Origin: a virus
Reading direction: 5' to 3' (one strand)
Length of the DNA stretch: 25,628 nucleotides
IMG/VR virus record: IMGVR_UViG_3300032156_000070
Location: 1-25,628 of that record
In this document: positions 3,429 through 18,488 of the stretch, one piece after another
Layout: each line of letters starts with the position of its first letter
How positions within the stretch are numbered: the stretch's first letter is position 1
Notes under the pieces: model-generated
Told to the model about the DNA's origin: nothing
The model's input: only the letters and a program-made list of their open reading frames with translations
The model's database searches: none
Translations under genes and position numbers: made by a program

Positions 3429-4633
3429 TAGGTACTTTCCTCTTCAATTGGCATTGGCTCTTGTAGAAGAGAAAGGAAACGAAGAGTTGTAAAACCCATC
3501 TCGATTAAAGAATAATTCATCTTCATCTCAATCTCATCCATATCAAATCGCCCCAACAACAAAAACGATACTATAATTTTATTTGGACTATTTGAAGCTA
3601 TTCCAAGAGCACTATCAATTGTTATTGTATTTCCACTGGCCCCAACTATTTCACGACATATCAATGTATCATCTGGCCATTGAAACACAACATAATGAGA
3701 AGCTTTTTTCCCACTCCAATAGGTTGGATATTCAATAGGTTCAACAGTAAACGTTACATCATCAGAGTCAAATGGCTCAGAAATAACAATATCCCTTTGA
3801 TGGGTTGGAAGCCAAAACTCACCCCATCTACCTTTATGATAATCAAAAAAATCAAGACATTGATTAACCATCTCTCTACCAATTATAACATATTCCCCTT
3901 CTAATGGGAGAATCGTCTCATCATAATGAGTAAACTTATAAGATTTTCCCAAAAAACTAAGATGGGAATATGGATGATAAAGAATCTGTTTTAATTGATT
4001 GTGTCTTGGTTTAAAATGAAATATTGGTAAACCCAAATAAACATCAAAATCATCTATATTTGGAACATGTCGTTCAATATCCTCATCAAACTCCTCATAA
4101 GAGGTTATTGCAATTCCACCACGAGCAGGATCAAGCAAATCTATCTCTTGTTGTGGTTCTATTCTTGATTTTAATAGAGGGTAAACCTTAGTTCCAACGG
4201 GCCAAGTGGAGCTCAAATTGGTAACAAGTGTTATTTGAGTTTCTGTAAAACTGTCAATCTCCCCAACCTCAAATGAGGTTATTGATTGAAATAATATACA
4301 TAATGATCCAACCTCAAAATTTCTATACAACGTTGATCCAACATTGAGAATCTTTAGCCCACTGGACGCTTGGGATATCAATGTGGTTTTATCTTGCCAA
4401 AAAGGAATGCCCCATGTCAAATGGAGACTTTTAAAAAGAATTCGTTTTAGATAATTCAATTCATCATAGGTTTTTGCAAAATATTTAGCAGTGATAGACC
4501 TTCGAGGCCAAGTGATAAGAGATGATCTCTGTTCTGTTCCATCCAAACCAGTTTGGATAGAAGTCCACCAACGCTTTTTGAATTGGAATGAGTTTTTCGT
4601 TGGCTCAAGTAAAAAATATTCATCTACCGTCAT
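3428..4633 (-). CDS. Distal-tail-like protein (401 aa)
   Basis: This protein occupies the distal-tail slot between tape measure and hub. The N-terminal region has a TEQRSSLITWPRR motif (33-45) and WGIPFW (74-79), a pattern I associate with tail proteins of siphophages. A second similar element, GRWGEFWLP (268-276), lies in the C-terminal half, so the protein may be an internal duplication of a distal-tail beta-sandwich. The C-terminal GRFDMDEIEM segment (about 363-372) resembles the 'R(F)xxDEIxL' ending of GTA gp12-like distal tail proteins. It is larger than the roughly 200-aa GTA gp12. The start overlaps the tape-measure stop as ATGA (4630-4633). The role in linking tail tube and hub is inferred mainly from position. 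Confidence 0.8.
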   Translation of the reverse strand: MTVDEYFLLEPTKNSFQFKKRWWTSIQTGLDGTEQRSSLITWPRRSITAKYFAKTYDELNYLKRILFKSLHLTWGIPFWQDKTTLISQASSGLKILNVGSTLYRNFEVGSLCILFQSITSFEVGEIDSFTETQITLVTNLSSTWPVGTKVYPLLKSRIEPQQEIDLLDPARGGIAITSYEEFDEDIERHVPNIDDFDVYLGLPIFHFKPRHNQLKQILYHPYSHLSFLGKSYKFTHYDETILPLEGEYVIIGREMVNQCLDFFDYHKGRWGEFWLPTHQRDIVISEPFDSDDVTFTVEPIEYPTYWSGKKASHYVVFQWPDDTLICREIVGASGNTITIDSALGIASNSPNKIIVSFLLLGRFDMDEIEMKMNYSLIEMGFTTLRFLSLLQEPMPIEEEST

Positions 4634-7600
4634 TTTAACATTCTCGAAACTTTTCCAGCATTAGACCCTATCACATTGATAATTGAATTTTGGCCCGCAG
4701 CCGAAGCTGCCCATTGGTCCATCTGACTTGGGTCAATGACATTAATTATGTTAATAGGTGTGCTTTCTTTTTCGGATTTTTCTCCAAGTTTAGATTGGGG
4801 AGTAACAAGTTCAGGTTCTGTTTCCCCAAATGAATATCTCTTCCCACTCTTACCAACCCCCCAAATAGGCTCAGTAATCATTCCACCGTGTTGATATCTA
4901 CCCATAGTCCCACCAAGTGAAAATCCATAATCCCCCGCAGTTGAAGGCCCGGCAGCATAGTCAATGCCGGTTGCAACCGTCCCTGCCCCACCAAAAAGAC
5001 CTCCGGCTAAACCAAGGACATTCATAACTATGCCACCCCAGTTCGTCTTTTGCTTTTGTTGGCCTCCTCCTTCTCCATACCCCAAGGCTTTAAGAATTTC
5101 CATTTTAATAATAAGCAAACCAATATCCGTAATCATGTCCATGATACTGGCTCCAAAATCATCAGCCAGTTGCTTAAACGCATCTCCTATAGACATTGTA
5201 TGATTCCTTACATTATCTAAAAATTTATTAATTTCACTTCCTGCCGCATTCACCGCACCAGGAAGTATATTTTCATATGAATCGGCCAATTGGTTGGTTA
5301 AATCAATAACACCCCTTTGTGCACCTATGTCCACAAGTTCACCAACGTCTAAGTTTTTCCTTGCCTCAGCTATACGAACCAATTGATCATAATAAGTATT
5401 TATAGCTGATAGGGCTTCTTTATTTAGAGCATTATTGGCTTGTAATACACTCCTTTCGTTTTCTAATAATTCAATTTCTTTATTTTTCATCTCAACATAA
5501 CTGCCCTGTAATGTAATTGATTCTTTTTGCCACCCCAACACTTCCTTTTGTTTACCCAATCCCCGTAACTGGTCTTGCAACTCTTTATTTTTCTTCAGAT
5601 ATTCTGCAAGCCGATTAAATTCATCATCTGACAACTTACCAATATCTTTCTCCACTCTGTAGCGCATTAATTGGATGTTTAAAATCTCTTGCAAAGCCTT
5701 ATTCTGTCCCTCTATGTTTCCAGTCATTTCTGCATATTGGGAGGCAGCTTGGGCAAGCAGATTAGAGCCATATGTCTCCATTTCTATCTTCTTTATAGCT
5801 GAATCAATTTCCCATTGTTTGGTTTTAAGGTCAATAATTCCTTGTAAATAAGGGTTCTTCTCTTGGGCAACTCTCAAAGAGGCAATCTCATCTTCTAAAA
5901 TTAATTTAGAAATTCGTTGGTATTCCTTGGCACTACCAGTGGCTTCAGCTACCCCCAATCCGGCTGTATAAAGAGGTTGACGTTGCTGGATTGCGGAGGT
6001 GATTTTAAATTGTTCCTGCTCCTTATTAGATAGACGAATTATTGCAAATATTTTCTGCCAAAGGTCTTGTTGTTTTGATAAATCTTTTGTTCTTTCAATT
6101 TGGATTTTTAAGCTGTCCACTTCAATATTAGTAAGACCTTGCATGGCTTGGACTTGACCTTCTATATCACCTGTAATCTTAGCATAAGTCTGTCCAATTC
6201 CAATTATGTCTTTTTTCCTTTCCAATTCTGCCAACTTTTTAGCCCTATCAATCTCAACTGTAGAAAGGGCAGTTTGGGCATCCATTTGTCTTTTCAATTC
6301 TGGAGTCAATTGTTGAGTAAGATGTAATTTCTCTTGGGACAAACGATTGGATTCAACAATAGTCTTTTTTTGTAACTCATATTGATCGGTGGCTTGGGCT
6401 ATTTGTTGAACTATTTTTAGTGGTGCTTCTGTCTCTTCAATCTGAGCAACCCGAAGCCGGACAGCTAAAAGTTTTGTAAATGCTTCCAATGTTTCTTGAC
6501 CTGAATCGCTTAACTTATTATATTCCACAACTGTTTTGATTGCTGCTTGTAATTGTTTCCCTGATAAAGTCTCCAAATCAATGTTGATGCCCTTAATTTT
6601 AGCATCCTCTGTAAGACGTTCCTTTAACTTATCATTAATATAACCAATCTCAGACGCAGTTTTAAATAGATATTCATATTCATCTGAGGTTAATTCCCTT
6701 GCCCTCACAACATAATTTTGATACTCTTTAAGATGACCCTTCATGGCCTCATCGAAAGAATCTAATGATTGTTTAGCCTTATTACTTCCAGAAACAAATT
6801 CATTAAACTCTTTCAAAACATTAGCCCCAATCGTAAACCAACTTTTACCACTAACCTTCTCTTCTATCCACTTTGGAGCAGTTCCAGGAGCCATTGTAGG
6901 TGCTCTCCATGGAGCTATTGATGGCGTAGCCGTGGTTGTCCCCTCTTTTGGTAATAGGCTTTTTACCGCTTGGGCTGAGATAGAGATTGACCGCCAAGCC
7001 TCCACCAAAAGATCAACAGGCCCACGAAGTTGATCAATAATAACTAATATGTCTTTGAATGTTTCGTAAAGACTTTGGATTACATATCCAACCCTTTTTA
7101 ATGAATCAACAAACTCTGGATTAAGCTCAGCCTCTCCAGTCTCTTCATTGAATTTAATCATTGTATTCATCAGTGCTTGGGCTTCCCGTTTGGCAAATTT
7201 AAACAAATCTTCAAAACCCGCTCCTAATACAATTTTTGATGCGTCTTTAAGATTGGACATCACTCCAGCCCAAGTCTTTTGACTTTCCACACCAGCTACA
7301 GTGAAGGATTTTAACCTCCCCATAATATATTCAAACAAAGCCCCCGCATTACCTTGGAATCGCCTAATATCTTCATTAGTGATTCCCAAAGCCGTAGCAA
7401 TTAATGTCTGTCTTGGGCTGATAGTCCCTCTCAGCATACTTCTGGTCTCTTCAGCCAACATATCCAGATTAAGACCTAATGCTCCAGCTGCTTGAACCAT
7501 CGCCGTAGTAAACTGGCGAACTTGTCCAACATCAAACCCCTTAGCCAAGGCTGGGGCAAGGGTTTGCTGGAAGGCTTTAACCAACTGGTCAAACGTGGCA

Positions 7601-8040
7601 ATAGTTTTTAAATTATCCAACTGTAACTGTTTAACAAGTTTGCCCGACATGTGTTGAGCAACTATCAATTTGTCATATCCCTCAACAGAACCCCCTATGG
7701 AATTGGTAAATTCCCCTTGAGCCATAAGAATAGAAGCAATACCAATTCTGGAAGTTTCAATCTGGGAATTAAATTCCATAGCAGAGGAAATGGCTGCCGA
7801 AGGAATTTGCATAGCCTTGGTTAAAACCCACATACCAAGAAAAGCAGCAGTCGTTCGTTGTAAACGCTCAACGGTTCGTTCAAATTGGGTTAATTCATGC
7901 TTGGCCTGTCTCGCTCCCTGAGCAACTTTCTCCCCCATTTGGGTTCCAGCTTGCCCAACACCTTGAACCGCTGCAGCAACTTTCTTAACAACAGCGGTTC
8001 CATCATCACGAACAACGAGAGTATAAGTTAGGTCTGCCAT
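4630..8040 (-). CDS. Tape measure protein
   Basis: This 1136-aa protein has the composition and position of a tape measure, directly after the tail chaperone. The N-terminus (about 45-115) is helical and crosses into a hydrophobic region. Residues 363-395 are a low-complexity Thr/Pro/Ala linker. Residues about 540-890 are long charged helices forming roughly five copies of a 73-79-residue unit; the clearest pair is TGDIEGQVQAMQ (623-634) and TGNIEGQNKALQ (773-784). Residues 905-985 resemble the C-terminal domain of lambda-family tape measures. The end has GGMITEPIW and GETEPELVTP (1052-1081), matching the usual GG-I-P...GE-GPE-V-P signature. It sets tail length and is released during DNA entry. 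At 0.15 nm per helical residue the upper limit is about 170 nm. ATG 8040 follows a GAGG and lies two bases after the -1 frame stop of the chaperone fusion. Confidence 0.95.
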   Translation of the reverse strand: MADLTYTLVVRDDGTAVVKKVAAAVQGVGQAGTQMGEKVAQGARQAKHELTQFERTVERLQRTTAAFLGMWVLTKAMQIPSAAISSAMEFNSQIETSRIGIASILMAQGEFTNSIGGSVEGYDKLIVAQHMSGKLVKQLQLDNLKTIATFDQLVKAFQQTLAPALAKGFDVGQVRQFTTAMVQAAGALGLNLDMLAEETRSMLRGTISPRQTLIATALGITNEDIRRFQGNAGALFEYIMGRLKSFTVAGVESQKTWAGVMSNLKDASKIVLGAGFEDLFKFAKREAQALMNTMIKFNEETGEAELNPEFVDSLKRVGYVIQSLYETFKDILVIIDQLRGPVDLLVEAWRSISISAQAVKSLLPKEGTTTATPSIAPWRAPTMAPGTAPKWIEEKVSGKSWFTIGANVLKEFNEFVSGSNKAKQSLDSFDEAMKGHLKEYQNYVVRARELTSDEYEYLFKTASEIGYINDKLKERLTEDAKIKGINIDLETLSGKQLQAAIKTVVEYNKLSDSGQETLEAFTKLLAVRLRVAQIEETEAPLKIVQQIAQATDQYELQKKTIVESNRLSQEKLHLTQQLTPELKRQMDAQTALSTVEIDRAKKLAELERKKDIIGIGQTYAKITGDIEGQVQAMQGLTNIEVDSLKIQIERTKDLSKQQDLWQKIFAIIRLSNKEQEQFKITSAIQQRQPLYTAGLGVAEATGSAKEYQRISKLILEDEIASLRVAQEKNPYLQGIIDLKTKQWEIDSAIKKIEMETYGSNLLAQAASQYAEMTGNIEGQNKALQEILNIQLMRYRVEKDIGKLSDDEFNRLAEYLKKNKELQDQLRGLGKQKEVLGWQKESITLQGSYVEMKNKEIELLENERSVLQANNALNKEALSAINTYYDQLVRIAEARKNLDVGELVDIGAQRGVIDLTNQLADSYENILPGAVNAAGSEINKFLDNVRNHTMSIGDAFKQLADDFGASIMDMITDIGLLIIKMEILKALGYGEGGGQQKQKTNWGGIVMNVLGLAGGLFGGAGTVATGIDYAAGPSTAGDYGFSLGGTMGRYQHGGMITEPIWGVGKSGKRYSFGETEPELVTPQSKLGEKSEKESTPINIINVIDPSQMDQWAASAAGQNSIINVIGSNAGKVSRMLK

Positions 8041-8042
8041 TG

Positions 8043-8752
8043 CTATTTTGCCTCTATTTCCCCTAACAAAGTTAAAACTTTTTCCAATGTTCTCAAAGAA
8101 TCACTAACCCTCATCGTTCTACATAAACTCAAAATGATCCCAGAATCTATTCCAAGCGGGCTGGAATATCTTTGAAAAACTTCCCAGGCATCCATATTTC
8201 CCAAAGACACGCCTGGGAAGCATTGACTACATTTAGGACCCTTATCTTTGAGTTTGGGATTTTCCTCAAAAATCTTTCTACATTCCCCGCAAAACCGTTT
8301 GAGCTTGCGGCGTTCTTTAATCCATGCCGCAAGCTCTACAAGTTTTTTCTTTCGCCCTCATCTTGTTTGGCTTCAGCTTCAATAAACTCACGGGCAGTTT
8401 TGAAGACAAATTCTCGCAATGGGTCATTATCGAACAACGCCCGTCTTATCTCTTTGGGCCCAGGAGCAGGTTCACCTTCCTCCACATCCAGTTCGATACC
8501 TTCCCATGCCTCCAAAGCTCGATCAAAAGATTCTTGTAAAAAAGCCCCATCATTATAGTCATCAACAATATGATTACCTAACTTTGACGGGTCTTTCGGA
8601 TCAATAGGAAAATCCTTAACAATTTTCTTTTCCTTAATCCCAGACAAAATACCCAAAGACTCAGAAAACGAAACTGGGCGAATCTTCAGACGAACTCCTG
8701 CGGCGTTTGGGTAGTCTACCCAAATACCCTTCCTCGATTTCAACTTTAACAT
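8043..8752 (-). CDS. Tail assembly chaperone, -1 frameshift fusion (lambda gpGT equivalent) with CxxC pairs
   Basis: A 236-aa product is predicted if ribosomes slip back one base at the A AAA AAC heptamer 8348-8342. Residues 1-137 are shared with the short chaperone. The next codon becomes CTT at 8342-8340, and the -1 frame stays open for 99 codons to a TAG at 8045-8043, two bases before the tape-measure ATG. The extension has FCGEC (Cys155, Cys158) and KCSQC (Cys175, Cys178), giving CxxC-x16-CxxC, a zinc-ribbon-like spacing. The rest is helical. In lambda, the rarer GT form binds both tape measure and tube subunits while the tail assembles. The -1 frame has no start codon of its own that would make it an independent gene. 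Slip site, spacer, hairpin and reading frame all agree. Confidence 0.85.
8301..8336 (-). promoter_or_regulatory. Frameshift-stimulating stem-loop
   Basis: On the minus strand GAGCTTGCGGC (8336-8326) pairs perfectly with GCCGCAAGCTC (8311-8301), an 11-bp stem with a 14-nt loop. It begins 5 nt after the slippery heptamer, the usual distance for stimulatory structures. No T-tract follows it, so it is not a terminator. The TAG of the zero frame (8338-8336) overlaps the first base of the stem. Confidence 0.85.
8336..8752 (-). CDS. Tail assembly chaperone, unshifted form (lambda gpG equivalent)
   Basis: A 138-aa protein between tail tube and tape measure, the standard place for a tail assembly chaperone. 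The N-terminus is short and beta-rich (KGIWVDYP..VRLKIRPVS). The C-terminal half is acidic and helical (EAWEGIELDVEEGEPAPGPKEIRRALFDNDPLREFVFKTAREFI), ending with a Lys/Glu-rich tail that contains the slippery site. ATG 8752 has a consensus SD (AAAGGAGG) 8 nt upstream. The family is recognised by location and general pattern, not by a strict motif; the frameshift cassette at its 3' end strongly supports it. Confidence 0.9.
   Translation of the reverse strand: MLKLKSRKGIWVDYPNAAGVRLKIRPVSFSESLGILSGIKEKKIVKDFPIDPKDPSKLGNHIVDDYNDGAFLQESFDRALEAWEGIELDVEEGEPAPGPKEIRRALFDNDPLREFVFKTAREFIEAEAKQDEGERKNL
8342..8348 (-). promoter_or_regulatory. Programmed -1 frameshift slippery site A AAA AAC
   Basis: The zero frame reads AGA AAA AAC TTG TAG, so the heptamer A AAA AAC is in the X XXY YYZ phase needed for simultaneous slippage of two tRNAs. 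It is two codons before the chaperone stop. A AAA AAG is the most efficient heptamer in E. coli; AAC in the A site is usually less slippery there, so the strong downstream hairpin may be important. Confidence 0.85.
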
Positions 8753-8789: not shown

Positions 8790-9218
8790 TTAAAAACTCT
8801 CAGCCCCAGCCAGTCTAAGAGCACCAAAGCCCAGCACCCCGATACTGACCGTTGCCACCCCAGCCTTGTCTTGGGTGATATCCACGTTCCGAATGTAACA
8901 CCCATTGATAGGATTTTCGTCCGTATCAATCTCCCAATAAGTGTCATCATCCAGATACAACCGCAACGTGGTGAGTTTGGTTGCTTCGAGTTTGGCTTGG
9001 ACTAAAGCCTTTTGTCCAGTGGTATCTGCTGGATCATAATTACCTTCCAAAGTGGCGTTCCATCCTTGCATACCAGGCACTTTCCTCTCCCACTCAGTTC
9101 CGAAGGCAGACACGTCAATTTCAGTCCCAGTCAGGTTCAAAGTCCACCTGCCCATGTTCTCAACCAACACATCTTCAATCTTAATACTTGCAAATCGCCC
9201 CATCATCGGATCGCCCAT
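8790..9218 (-). CDS. Major tail tube protein
   Basis: This 142-aa beta-rich protein has the signature of siphovirus tail tube subunits: a core such as TLNLTGTEIDVSAFGTEW (26-43), a PGMQGWNATLEGNYD stretch, and a final strand containing VSIGVLGFGAL. It probably polymerises as stacked hexameric rings around the tape measure. It sits upstream of the chaperone, as usual. ATG 9218 has a GAGGAG SD 7 nt upstream and is preferred to the two nearby methionines at residues 5-6. No extra Ig-like domain is present. Confidence 0.9.
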   Translation of the reverse strand: MGDPMMGRFASIKIEDVLVENMGRWTLNLTGTEIDVSAFGTEWERKVPGMQGWNATLEGNYDPADTTGQKALVQAKLEATKLTTLRLYLDDDTYWEIDTDENPINGCYIRNVDITQDKAGVATVSIGVLGFGALRLAGAESF

Positions 9219-9256
9219 CTTAGTTCTCCTCTCTTAAAATAGATTTGTTAAATTGT

Positions 9257-9709
9257 TTATGGATCACTTCTGCTGAACCTATAAAGAATCTCAATAATAA
9301 GTTCAAACAGCCCCAGCCCATTCATTTCCGTTGAAAGCCAACCTTCATCTGTATCAAGAGAAACTGGTTTGTAAGATTTATAATAAGGGTTATATTCCTT
9401 GCTTTCCAAAACCTGTATAACATCCTTTATCAAACTATTTAATGTGGTTTCTGGATTGCTTTCATCTTTCGTATAACCCCGAATTTTCACTCTTAATTTA
9501 CTTATAGTTTTAGGATCAAATTGATCCTCGAAAACCTCTCCACCCCCTAATACCATCAAGACAGGAAATGTTATTGAAGGATCATCATATGTAACCATTT
9601 TTCTAAATACTTGAGTAACAGTGTTGTTAAAACCATTACTACCTTCTATAATGTTTTCACAAGTGGATTTGATAGATTGAAGAATTAATTCCCTGTTAGA
9701 ATCACTCAT
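9257..9709 (-). CDS. Tail terminator-like protein
   Basis: A 150-aa protein in the slot between gp10-like protein and tail tube. It has the alpha/beta order of tail terminators: an N-terminal helix, a strand with FPVLMVLGGGE (48-58), a central KLRVKIRGYTKDE, a helix LIKDVIQVLES, and a final TDEGWLSTE...LFELIIEILYRF. Tail terminators cap the growing tube and join it to the head. The start overlaps the previous stop (TAATG at 9707-9711). Function is from fold pattern and position. Confidence 0.8.
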   Translation of the reverse strand: MSDSNRELILQSIKSTCENIIEGSNGFNNTVTQVFRKMVTYDDPSITFPVLMVLGGGEVFEDQFDPKTISKLRVKIRGYTKDESNPETTLNSLIKDVIQVLESKEYNPYYKSYKPVSLDTDEGWLSTEMNGLGLFELIIEILYRFSRSDP

Positions 9710-10854: not shown

Positions 10855-11193
10855 TCATTTACTAATAGGGTTTTTCAATTTGCGAACAGCCTTCACCAAT
10901 CCAGCCTTTTCTTTAGGTTTATCTTCAACGCTTGGGACATCTTCTTTAGAATCAGCATCTAAATCCTTCCGATCTTTGATTTTCCAAACACATCCTTGTG
11001 AATGTTGACCAAAAAACGACTCCTCTCTTTTAACTATCGTCTCTTTGCCTAATTCATTTCCCACCAATATAGGAAAAGCGGAAACGGACGTGTCAAATCT
11101 TATATCCATCCCCCCACAATTTTGGCAAACCAAGTTGATAGCTAATTTTCCTACTCTGGTTTCTTTACCACAATTATCACATTTGAATTTCAT
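10855..11193 (-). CDS. Zinc-ribbon protein, 112 aa
   Basis: Two CxxC knuckles at the N-terminus (Cys5/Cys8 in CDNC and Cys23/Cys26 in CQNC) form a zinc-ribbon of about 30 residues. A linker (about 30-75) follows, then a highly charged tail that ends in basic KAVRKLKNPISK. The start ATG overlaps the stop of the preceding 52-aa zinc-ribbon gene as ATGA (11190-11193). It lies between the major capsid gene and the connector, where a head-decoration or neck gene is often found. No specific family recognised. It could bind DNA, RNA or protein, and a virion role is not established. Confidence 0.8.
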   Translation of the reverse strand: MKFKCDNCGKETRVGKLAINLVCQNCGGMDIRFDTSVSAFPILVGNELGKETIVKREESFFGQHSQGCVWKIKDRKDLDADSKEDVPSVEDKPKEKAGLVKAVRKLKNPISK

Positions 11194-11348
11194 TTCTTAA
11201 TCACCTCCTCTTCAGTCCTAATCAAATCAAACTGAGTCCCCCCACACTTTTCGCATGATGGTGTTTCAAAGACATACTCAGGGATCACCAAAACTTTTTT
11301 ACATCCCTTACATTTCAAATGTAAACACTTTTTTGAACCATTGATCAT
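11190..11348 (-). CDS. Small zinc-ribbon protein, 52 aa
   Basis: A short gene not obvious by length. The frame contains CxxLKCKGC followed by CEKC (knuckles KCKGC and CEKC about 19 residues apart), a zinc ribbon ending TQFDLI. Two in-frame starts exist. The upstream ATG (11363) lacks an SD, while ATG 11348 has GGAG 8 nt upstream (inside the first option), so 11348 was chosen. The stop overlaps the next start as ATGA. Similarity in layout to the 112-aa neighbour suggests the pair arose by duplication or works together. Function unknown. Confidence 0.7.
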   Translation of the reverse strand: MINGSKKCLHLKCKGCKKVLVIPEYVFETPSCEKCGGTQFDLIRTEEEVIKK

Positions 11349-11363
11349 AACTAATTCTCCCAT

Positions 11364-14856: not shown

Positions 14857-16782
14857 TTAAACCGTTGACGCTAACTCCTGAGTCATTACTCCAACCTGAA
14901 TATCAGTGATATCATTTCCATCCTTATCCTTCAGTTTCTTGTCTACGATGATACTAACTCCAGTTTCATCATAAATCCGAAAATGCCATGTGTCACCAAC
15001 CTTAACCAAAACCTTCTTATTATGAACATAAGCTTCTTGGGTTGCAAGCCAATCATGTTCTTGTTGAGTAAGTCCTCCTCTCATATCAATCTCCTCCAAT
15101 AAAATCTGTTCATTAAGCATAATGATAGCCCTTGCTACTGATCCCGTGAGTCGATATTCGCCAGGTTCAGCATTAAGAAAATATTCAATAAGAATCTTCA
15201 AAAGTTCAGCATCAATCCCAGTCAAGACATACGTCCCAGGATCAGCTTTAAGAATTCGTTGTGCGAGAGTAACCACTTCTTTCCCCATAAGATTATAAAT
15301 TCCAGGACTTGCATCAAGTATCCGAACGGAAAGTAGCCCAGCGTTTGTTCCAAATACTAAATAACTGCCAGGGTCAACTACTAACACATATGCGGATGGG
15401 GTGGTATGAACTAAATCAACAACAACTCCGGTAAGTGTAAAAGTCCCTAATTCAGCATTTAACAATCTGGCAGCAAGAATTTGAGCAGATACACCGGTTA
15501 TAAGATAACTTCCTACATTTGCCGAAATGAACCTTTGCGCAAGAATTGTTGCATCGCTACCTGTAACCAGATATACGCCACCATCGGCTGAAATAAAATA
15601 ACCACGGGCAAGTGTTGCATTTATTCCCGAAATTACATAGTCACCCGGACTACCATTAAGCAAACGAGCACCCAAAACATTTGCTTGAACTCCCGTAATT
15701 GCATAATCCCCCGAACCTGCCGATATAAGTCTGTTAGCTAATGGACCAGCAGATATTCCCGATACATCATAAGAACCTAATGCTGCATTTATTGAATAAG
15801 CTACATACTCATCAAATCCAATGTCCCAACTTCCAGAACGAACACATTTATCAATATCGTCATTGAAGGGATAGATCGCATCCGCACTTAAATCCGTCCC
15901 TAAATCTATTGCACCCGCATCATTTGAAGCAAGATGGAAATCATCCCCACCAGAATTAACAAAGGTGAAGGTATGACTTATATGGTTCCCTGCCCCACCC
16001 CAATCATCTGCGGTGGTATCCTTTGAAGCACAGTAGGTAACGGTTCTTGTCGGACTACCAGTTGTTCCATCACTAAAATCAGCAGTAGTGTTATCAGAGG
16101 CAAGGCAATTAGTCCATATATGAACTCCAGTGGCTTGATTCCCCAACATCCTGAAACCATAAGTCCCATTATTGGTTGAAGTACAATTATAAAATCTTCC
16201 CCCTGAATTTGTTGTAAAAGAAGAAGTCCTAAATCCATCCCCTTCACAGTTATGTGCCAAACAATCTATTGCAAAACCGACATTTGAAGCTGTAGGTGCT
16301 ATTACAAATCCTTGACCGGTTCCAGTGCTACCAATCAAACAATCGTAAGCAATGCAACCCACAACAGCAGAAGAATTACACGATCCACTTTGTGTAAACG
16401 CATATCTGATGGCAGTTCCACTCGCAATACTTACTTTGGCAATTATATCTTGAATCTGAGAATAAATTTCCTGTAATGTAAATATATTCGTATCTGTTGT
16501 ACAAATAAATGTTACTCCATTATTCGGGGTTCCATCATGTCCCTGCCCTGCGGCTGGTCTGATAATCCTAAAGTAGGTGGCGTCGGTTGTGGCCCCTAAA
16601 ATCACCACATAATCATTAAAGCTGGCGGCATCGTCATAGCATTCAAGAACAGGAGAGGTCGTTCCAGTAACACAGTTTATGGTGTGGGCATCTTCCCAGG
16701 TCTGAAGGGCAGTGTAATTTCTTGTCCCATTTCCATAGGTGTGAATAGATTCGTTTGTTCCTACTTTTCTTGCAGAACCCAT
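14857..16782 (-). CDS. Beta-helix protein with ten GxYxxTG tandem repeats (fiber- or decoration-like)
   Basis: A 641-aa protein of three parts. Residues about 1-325 have the Asn/Thr/Ser/Gly-rich pattern of a right-handed parallel beta-helix, with repeated 'xxNCxAxxNxxxGF' turns and a closing DFHLASNDAGAIDLG...DIDKCVRSGSWDIGFDEY (281-326), a known ending of secreted beta-helix domains. Residues about 330-552 are ten tandem units of 20-26 aa with consensus L-x-A-x-x-G-x-Y-x-[IL]-T-G. Residues about 553-641 are a distinct C-terminal domain (LTQQEHDWLATQEAYVHNKKVLVK). It directly abuts the 160-aa gene. Location among head genes suggests a head fiber or decoration protein, possibly glycan binding, but a tail-fiber role cannot be excluded. 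Confidence 0.8.
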   Translation of the reverse strand: MGSARKVGTNESIHTYGNGTRNYTALQTWEDAHTINCVTGTTSPVLECYDDAASFNDYVVILGATTDATYFRIIRPAAGQGHDGTPNNGVTFICTTDTNIFTLQEIYSQIQDIIAKVSIASGTAIRYAFTQSGSCNSSAVVGCIAYDCLIGSTGTGQGFVIAPTASNVGFAIDCLAHNCEGDGFRTSSFTTNSGGRFYNCTSTNNGTYGFRMLGNQATGVHIWTNCLASDNTTADFSDGTTGSPTRTVTYCASKDTTADDWGGAGNHISHTFTFVNSGGDDFHLASNDAGAIDLGTDLSADAIYPFNDDIDKCVRSGSWDIGFDEYVAYSINAALGSYDVSGISAGPLANRLISAGSGDYAITGVQANVLGARLLNGSPGDYVISGINATLARGYFISADGGVYLVTGSDATILAQRFISANVGSYLITGVSAQILAARLLNAELGTFTLTGVVVDLVHTTPSAYVLVVDPGSYLVFGTNAGLLSVRILDASPGIYNLMGKEVVTLAQRILKADPGTYVLTGIDAELLKILIEYFLNAEPGEYRLTGSVARAIIMLNEQILLEEIDMRGGLTQQEHDWLATQEAYVHNKKVLVKVGDTWHFRIYDETGVSIIVDKKLKDKDGNDITDIQVGVMTQELASTV

Positions 16783-18314: not shown

Positions 18315-18488
18315 CTATAAAACTCTTTTCCCAACAAGCCCCAACCTTCCAGGGTCTAAAGTTACCTCAAAGTGACGACAACCACAGACCTTACATTTTT
18401 GAATAGTAAGATCTGGTTTATCGTTTTGTTCCAACTCAAGATTTTCTATCAATTTGCAACACTCTTTTCGTTTGTCCCCCGCTTCCAT
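18315..18488 (-). CDS. Small zinc-ribbon-like protein, 57 aa
   Basis: A short gene with a strong SD (AAGGAGG) 5 nt before ATG 18488. It has Cys10-Cys11 in KECCKLIE, then CKVCGCRHF (Cys32, Cys35, Cys37, His39) and a C-terminal GRLGLVGKRVL. The CxxCxCxH cluster suggests metal binding. The helical segment between the cysteine groups is acidic. Some phage zinc-finger proteins of this size (Mu Com) act on mRNA, but no sequence similarity to Com can be claimed. Stop TAG at 18317-18315. Confidence 0.72.
   Translation of the reverse strand: MEAGDKRKECCKLIENLELEQNDKPDLTIQKCKVCGCRHFEVTLDPGRLGLVGKRVL

Follow-up and report, generated by a model that had tools for sequence, protein, structure and literature searches.

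Probable -1 programmed ribosomal frameshifting in the tail assembly chaperone gene of an uncultivated phage

Comparative sequence analysis indicates, with a probability that we put at about 0.94, that a single gene of an uncultivated phage gives rise to two tail assembly chaperones (TACs). The mechanism would be the standard one, -1 programmed ribosomal frameshifting as in lambda G/GT. The phage is represented by a stretch of 25,628 nucleotides (IMG/VR record IMGVR_UViG_3300032156_000070), hereafter the window, and the elements of the cassette and its neighbouring genes are listed in Table 1. Most ribosomes would stop at the TAG at 8338-8336 and release a short chaperone of 138 amino acids. 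A minority, slowed by a stem whose 5' arm begins 5 nt past the slippery heptamer, would see both tRNAs slip from AAA/AAC to AAA/AAA and then translate about 98 more codons, giving a long chaperone of about 236 amino acids with a C-terminal CxxC...CxxC domain resembling a zinc ribbon. If lambda is a guide, the short chaperone would coat the tape measure protein, which a TAC is expected to serve, and the long one would bring in the major tail protein. The slippage itself, its efficiency and the stimulatory effect of the helix are inferred. The window resembles lambda G/GT in its gene order, in a -1 shift placed shortly ahead of the zero-frame stop and in the C-terminal extension of the long form; unlike lambda, whose heptamer is G GGA AAG, it has A AAA AAC, a zinc-ribbon-like extension and a strong downstream hairpin. 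The cassette is thus an unexceptional example of a frameshift already known from tailed phages, described for lambda gpG/gpGT and for conserved equivalents of it in dsDNA tailed phages (Xu, Hendrix and Duda 2004, cited in PMC5009743).

Table 1. Coordinates in the window of the putative frameshift cassette and the adjacent tail genes.
Feature	Position	Strand	Evidence
Short TAC, zero-frame ORF	8336..8752	-	PHROG_313, E 9e-4; flanked by major tail protein and tape measure
Slippery heptamer A AAA AAC	8342..8348	-	Read directly; in phase in all protein-retrieved family homologues
Spacer TTGTA, 5 nt	8337..8341	-	Read directly
Stem 5' arm GAGCTTGCGGC	8326..8336	-	CTTGC core is the counterpart of the CTCGC core in relatives
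Stem 3' arm GCCGCAAGCTC	8301..8311	-	Perfect 11 bp, 14-nt loop
-1 frame extension, KKLVELAAW...CxxC...CxxC	8043..8348	-	Stop TAG 8045-8043; conserved in relatives
Tape measure protein	4630..8040	-	PHROG_3336, E 2e-4; homologues in the L002, L003 and L004 records
Major tail protein, upstream neighbour of TAC	8790..9218	-	PHROG_1407, E 3e-9

An earlier note on this DNA had described the anatomy of the cassette, and its account of the ORF, in-phase heptamer, spacer, perfect stem and open -1 frame proved exact to the base. The zero-frame ORF ends in GAA AGA AAA AAC TTG TAG, where the codons AAA/AAC have the phase needed for tandem slippage and a single sense codon (TTG) separates the heptamer from the stop. 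The -1 frame does end, as the note had it, two bases before the tape measure ATG, which is at 8040. The chaperone family (Tail assembly chaperone, PHROG_313) was matched by five of five family members, with a best E of 5e-8, and the gene order (major tail protein, TAC, tape measure) is that expected of a TAC. The AAAAAAC string itself is not enriched in the window (9 found and 12 expected).

Protein-similarity searches retrieved homologues with 97% (L002), 48% (L003), 36-37% (L004 and L005), 37% (L013 and L014) and 32% (L015) identity to the zero-frame protein, and later searches with profiles of other subgroups added L089 and L092-L096. All these protein-retrieved homologues, down to 32% identity, have A AAA AAC in the same phase followed by an open -1 frame, so the conservation among homologous chaperones that the earlier note had proposed as a check holds for the heptamer. 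The -1 extension is 26-82% identical among relatives, and 14 sequences show no variation in its KKL, in L6-A7 or in the four cysteines of CxxC...CxxC. Of the 47 differences between the window and L002 beyond the stem, 30 are at third positions of -1-frame codons. Scanning DNA for a pattern (heptamer plus CTC NNN GAN CTC GC) added numerous other divergent TACs arranged in two frames in the same way; these loci were selected for the heptamer and are therefore not counted as evidence of its conservation. Searches of named phages with the window's two proteins (tblastn) gave no matches, a protein-profile search of genome contigs gave no prophage relatives, and five DNA-pattern matches in genome contigs were not TAC-like when read.

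Two frames in one gene might in general be caused by an assembly or sequencing error, but the arrangement recurs in independently assembled contigs (32-97% identity) and in named phages, which refutes this explanation and leaves it a negligible probability. The two frames might also encode separate proteins, the downstream one starting on its own and making a frameshift unnecessary, since the -1 frame has a GTG-started ORF of 55 amino acids at 8210-8043. Yet this GTG is the first possible start of that frame in the window and comes after KKL..ELA..W and CxxC..CxxC, so that the most conserved part would be left untranslated. The cysteine-containing extension is encoded in the -1 frame only, and a frame change is thus the only way to express it; we regard separate proteins as extremely improbable.

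The claim of a -1 programmed frameshift in the tail chaperone is therefore strongly supported, by the in-phase heptamer and open -1 frame, the PHROG_313 match and gene order, homologues that share the in-phase heptamer and a homologous extension, and, in the window, the lack of an independent start before the zinc-ribbon part of the extension. Further support comes from the joined long TAC annotated in the phages TLS and RcSimone-Hastad, and from two-sided changes in a helix built on the same 5' arm. Taken with its homologues, the cassette as a whole is far more than chance would give. Against frameshifting count that AAC is less shift-prone in E. coli, that the 11-bp stem recurs only in L002, and that no Shine-Dalgarno stimulator is detectable, internal sites upstream of the heptamer being no more common across 38 TACs than under synonymous nulls.

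How common is this heptamer? The C-terminal domains of two loci, used as tblastn queries, retrieved 119 and 830 named phage records, and 13 of the 14 regions that were fetched have a heptamer at the junction. It is A AAA AAC in HK639, TLS, A143 (recorded host Campylobacter, yet classed as Hanrivervirus), Dhillonvirus JLBYU27, Susuwatari (Serratia), pAEv1818 (Aeromonas) and PaMx25 (Pseudomonas), and G GGA AAC in RcSimone-Hastad, 20Sep420, PseuP_222, CUB19, Silvergun and Aval. Hosts of phages with either form belong to Escherichia, Serratia, Aeromonas, Pseudomonas, Stenotrophomonas, Acinetobacter, Acidovorax and Rhodobacter. The fourteenth region, from Klebsiella phage TSK1 (L086, Webervirus), lacks a canonical heptamer at about 695-712, and its junction, GCA AAA GTT TAA, suggests slippage on A AAA G only.

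The replacement of A AAA AAC by G GGA AAC in other phages fits tandem tRNA slippage. It also bears on whether the frame is changed before translation, by RNA polymerase slipping on the six A to produce transcripts with extra A, an explanation with which the presence of six A in every homologue of the window's family would agree. Six A is, however, a short run for polymerase slippage, and other TACs have at the same site G GGA AAC, which contains no long homopolymer and keeps the X XXY YYZ layout. In addition, a downstream RNA helix is conserved at ribosomal spacing. The exchange between AAAAAAC and GGGAAAC at one site thus argues for ribosomal slippage, and we consider polymerase slippage very unlikely.

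Published accounts place the heptamer of the window at the same position of the same kind of gene in phiCbK-like phages (AAAAAAC; PMC3556154), in Loki and IME_AB3 (AAAAAAC; PMC5313236) and in the haloarchaeal virus HCTV-2 (A AAA AAC; PMC5009743). Colossus has GGGAAAC at its TAC site instead (PMC3556154), as does KL1, with a predicted stem-loop (PMC3483164), and the haloarchaeal virus HCTV-1 has G GGA AAC (PMC5009743). The phiCbK-like phages and Colossus, Loki and IME_AB3, and HCTV-2 are different phages from ours, and the available parts of these accounts mention no downstream helix (PMC3556154, PMC5313236, PMC5009743). A AAA AAC is thus a common tail-chaperone heptamer rather than an exotic one, and the idea that AAC would be unusual here found no support, given the many phages and publications with A AAA AAC or G GGA AAC. 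Among the named phages, Escherichia phage TLS (tfmA/tfmS, AY308796) and HK639 have the heptamer of the window, and the hairpin of TLS resembles that of the window, with an 8-bp stem (GGCGGTTT/AAACCGCC), a 14-nt loop and a 5' arm from +8. The C-terminal domain of TLS and HK639 is related to DUF1799, according to the annotation of a co-retrieved hit, and is not a zinc ribbon. The earlier note had also seen in the heptamer and hairpin a distinct design that may inform on the tRNA set of the host. The first part fails, because several phages, E. coli phages included, combine the heptamer with comparable hairpins, and the second is not supported, because E. coli phages use AAC, which is thus no pointer to a special tRNA set of the host. 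The window contains no tRNA genes, and its IMG/VR record gives no host. According to a review, ribosomes in E. coli shift far less readily on A AAA AAC than on A AAA AAG, and lambda has a 30:1 dose of short to long product, with the long form low (PMC5009743); a weak AAC site fits a long form that is needed at a low ratio.

The stem itself is stronger than the coded protein would lead one to expect. Its predicted energy is -21.6 kcal/mol (z of -4.3 relative to dinucleotide shuffles), its spacer falls in the range of 5-9 nt expected of a stimulator, and when the -1 frame was recoded synonymously 5000 times, no perfect stem of at least 11 bp arose at the same spacing. This strong local hairpin was found only in the window and L002. 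L002 has no changes in the stem, but we rejected this identity as evidence of conservation, because up to +91 the two sequences differ by only about 2% in any case. At about that distance from the heptamer, the divergence between the window (8043-8752) and L002 climbs to about 21%, a pattern that a recombination boundary inside the -1 extension would produce.

The nearest diverged relatives have the same 5' arm and a partner about 100 nt away, not the perfect hairpin of the window. In stretches of up to 50-90 nt, about half of the 38 TACs fold better than their synonymous recodings, and L003, L004, L020 and L025 have z near 0 within 50 nt. The view that relatives lack the stem, drawn from these short folds, was overturned by folding longer stretches. 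In 20 of 22 loci, a set of related members chosen for the 5' core and not for the partner, positions +9 to +13 (the core, CTCGC or, in the window, CTTGC) are predicted with high probability to pair with a complement downstream, at arm-partner distances of 20-104 nt. In the other two (L060 and L036) the tested partner has low probability and the same arm pairs otherwise. Partners of at least 6 bp occur in 21 of the 22 CTCGC-core loci, where synonymous recoding of the codons downstream would give 12 (P 1e-5), and those of at least 7 bp in 16, where it would give 6.7 (P 4e-6). Flanking positions also covary: the outer flank is paired in 17 of 22 loci and in 8.9 after permutation (P 5e-5), and the inner flanks give P 0.001 and 0.008.

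For the group to which the window belongs (L003, L004, L005, L013, L015, L020, L025 and L034), RNAalifold predicts a single helix between +8 to +19 and sites about 100 nt downstream, on the second CxxC codons, so that the structure spans about +8 to +130 after the heptamer. A 13-pair version has 88.5% of its cells paired, versus 31-46% when the partner is slid, and four of the 13 pairs have two-sided changes. The minimum free energy is below the mean of the synonymous null in 21 of 21 relatives (mean z -2.3), with stretch lengths that were fixed when the location of the partner was already known. Compensatory changes, proposed by the earlier note as a check on the stem, are seen in the family helix on the same 5' arm and not in the local stem of the window, which only L002 shares, without changes.

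Might the stem be incidental, a terminator or a coincidence of codons, with the heptamer alone causing slippage? The weak immediate local folds of L003, L004, L020 and L025 would agree with this, as would the protein-found loci L092-L096, which lack the CTCGC core. A search for a terminator-like site found none, leading us to reject the terminator reading, and the synonymous recodings, together with the downstream pairing of the same arm and its two-sided changes in longer stretches, argue against coincidence. We therefore think an incidental stem unlikely and prefer a helix that takes part in frameshifting.

The window and L002 retain the docking arm and pair it with a local partner. Across a broad group of siphophage TACs, we propose that CTC GC at +9 to +13, on E/D-L-A codons, is a fixed arm whose partner has moved, lying about 100 nt away on the second CxxC codons in relatives of the window, 20-50 nt away elsewhere, and in a local perfect hairpin in the window. 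Selection would then act on where the helix sits relative to the ribosome and leave the partner free, resulting in long branched stimulators in phage tail genes. We hold this proposal to be an even bet. In L004 a second, weak partner (GTGAG) lies at the arm-partner distance of the window, which may hint at how a switch of partner could arise. RNA pairing over tens of nucleotides also occurs in the stimulators of IS3411-type elements, with a partner distance of 44-104 nt depending on the element, and of IS911, with a branched structure (PMC5009743). Those are transposase genes, and the IS3411-type stimulator is described there as an apical loop - internal loop pseudoknot, whereas the 5' arm here is predicted to close a long branched stem. 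The fixed arm with a wandering partner is a by-product of this analysis and the part most worth following: some 22 divergent loci, in which a single fixed arm meets partners 20-104 nt away, offer a natural series on how distance and branching relate to frameshift efficiency in bacteria.

The extension encoded by the -1 frame had no match in Pfam, PHROG or fold searches. The C-terminal domain is modelled, at moderate confidence (pLDDT 80, pTM 0.70), as largely helical, and the four invariant cysteines suggest a zinc-ribbon-like domain that may bind zinc. Three more small ORFs with CxxC pairs, also zinc-ribbon-like, are found in the structural region, at 10855-11193, 11190-11363 and 18315-18488, all on the minus strand.

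L003 (723-1481) and L004 (2870-3586) have, just before the major tail gene, a gene of about 240-250 amino acids that looks like a glycosyltransferase by eye, placed in L004 between a tail terminator homologue and the major tail gene, whereas the window has no gene in 9218-9257. The gene order differs in L015, where, from about 2806, the TAC is followed by an ORF that by eye resembles a neck or tail-completion gene, not a tape measure. Elsewhere in the window, about 2.1 kb at the record end (1-2127), downstream of a tail gene named by eye as NlpC/P60-like, contains short ORFs only, and a 641-aa protein at 14857-16782 on the minus strand has, in its C-terminal half, repeats of the type ISAxxGDYxITGxxAxxLxxRLL.
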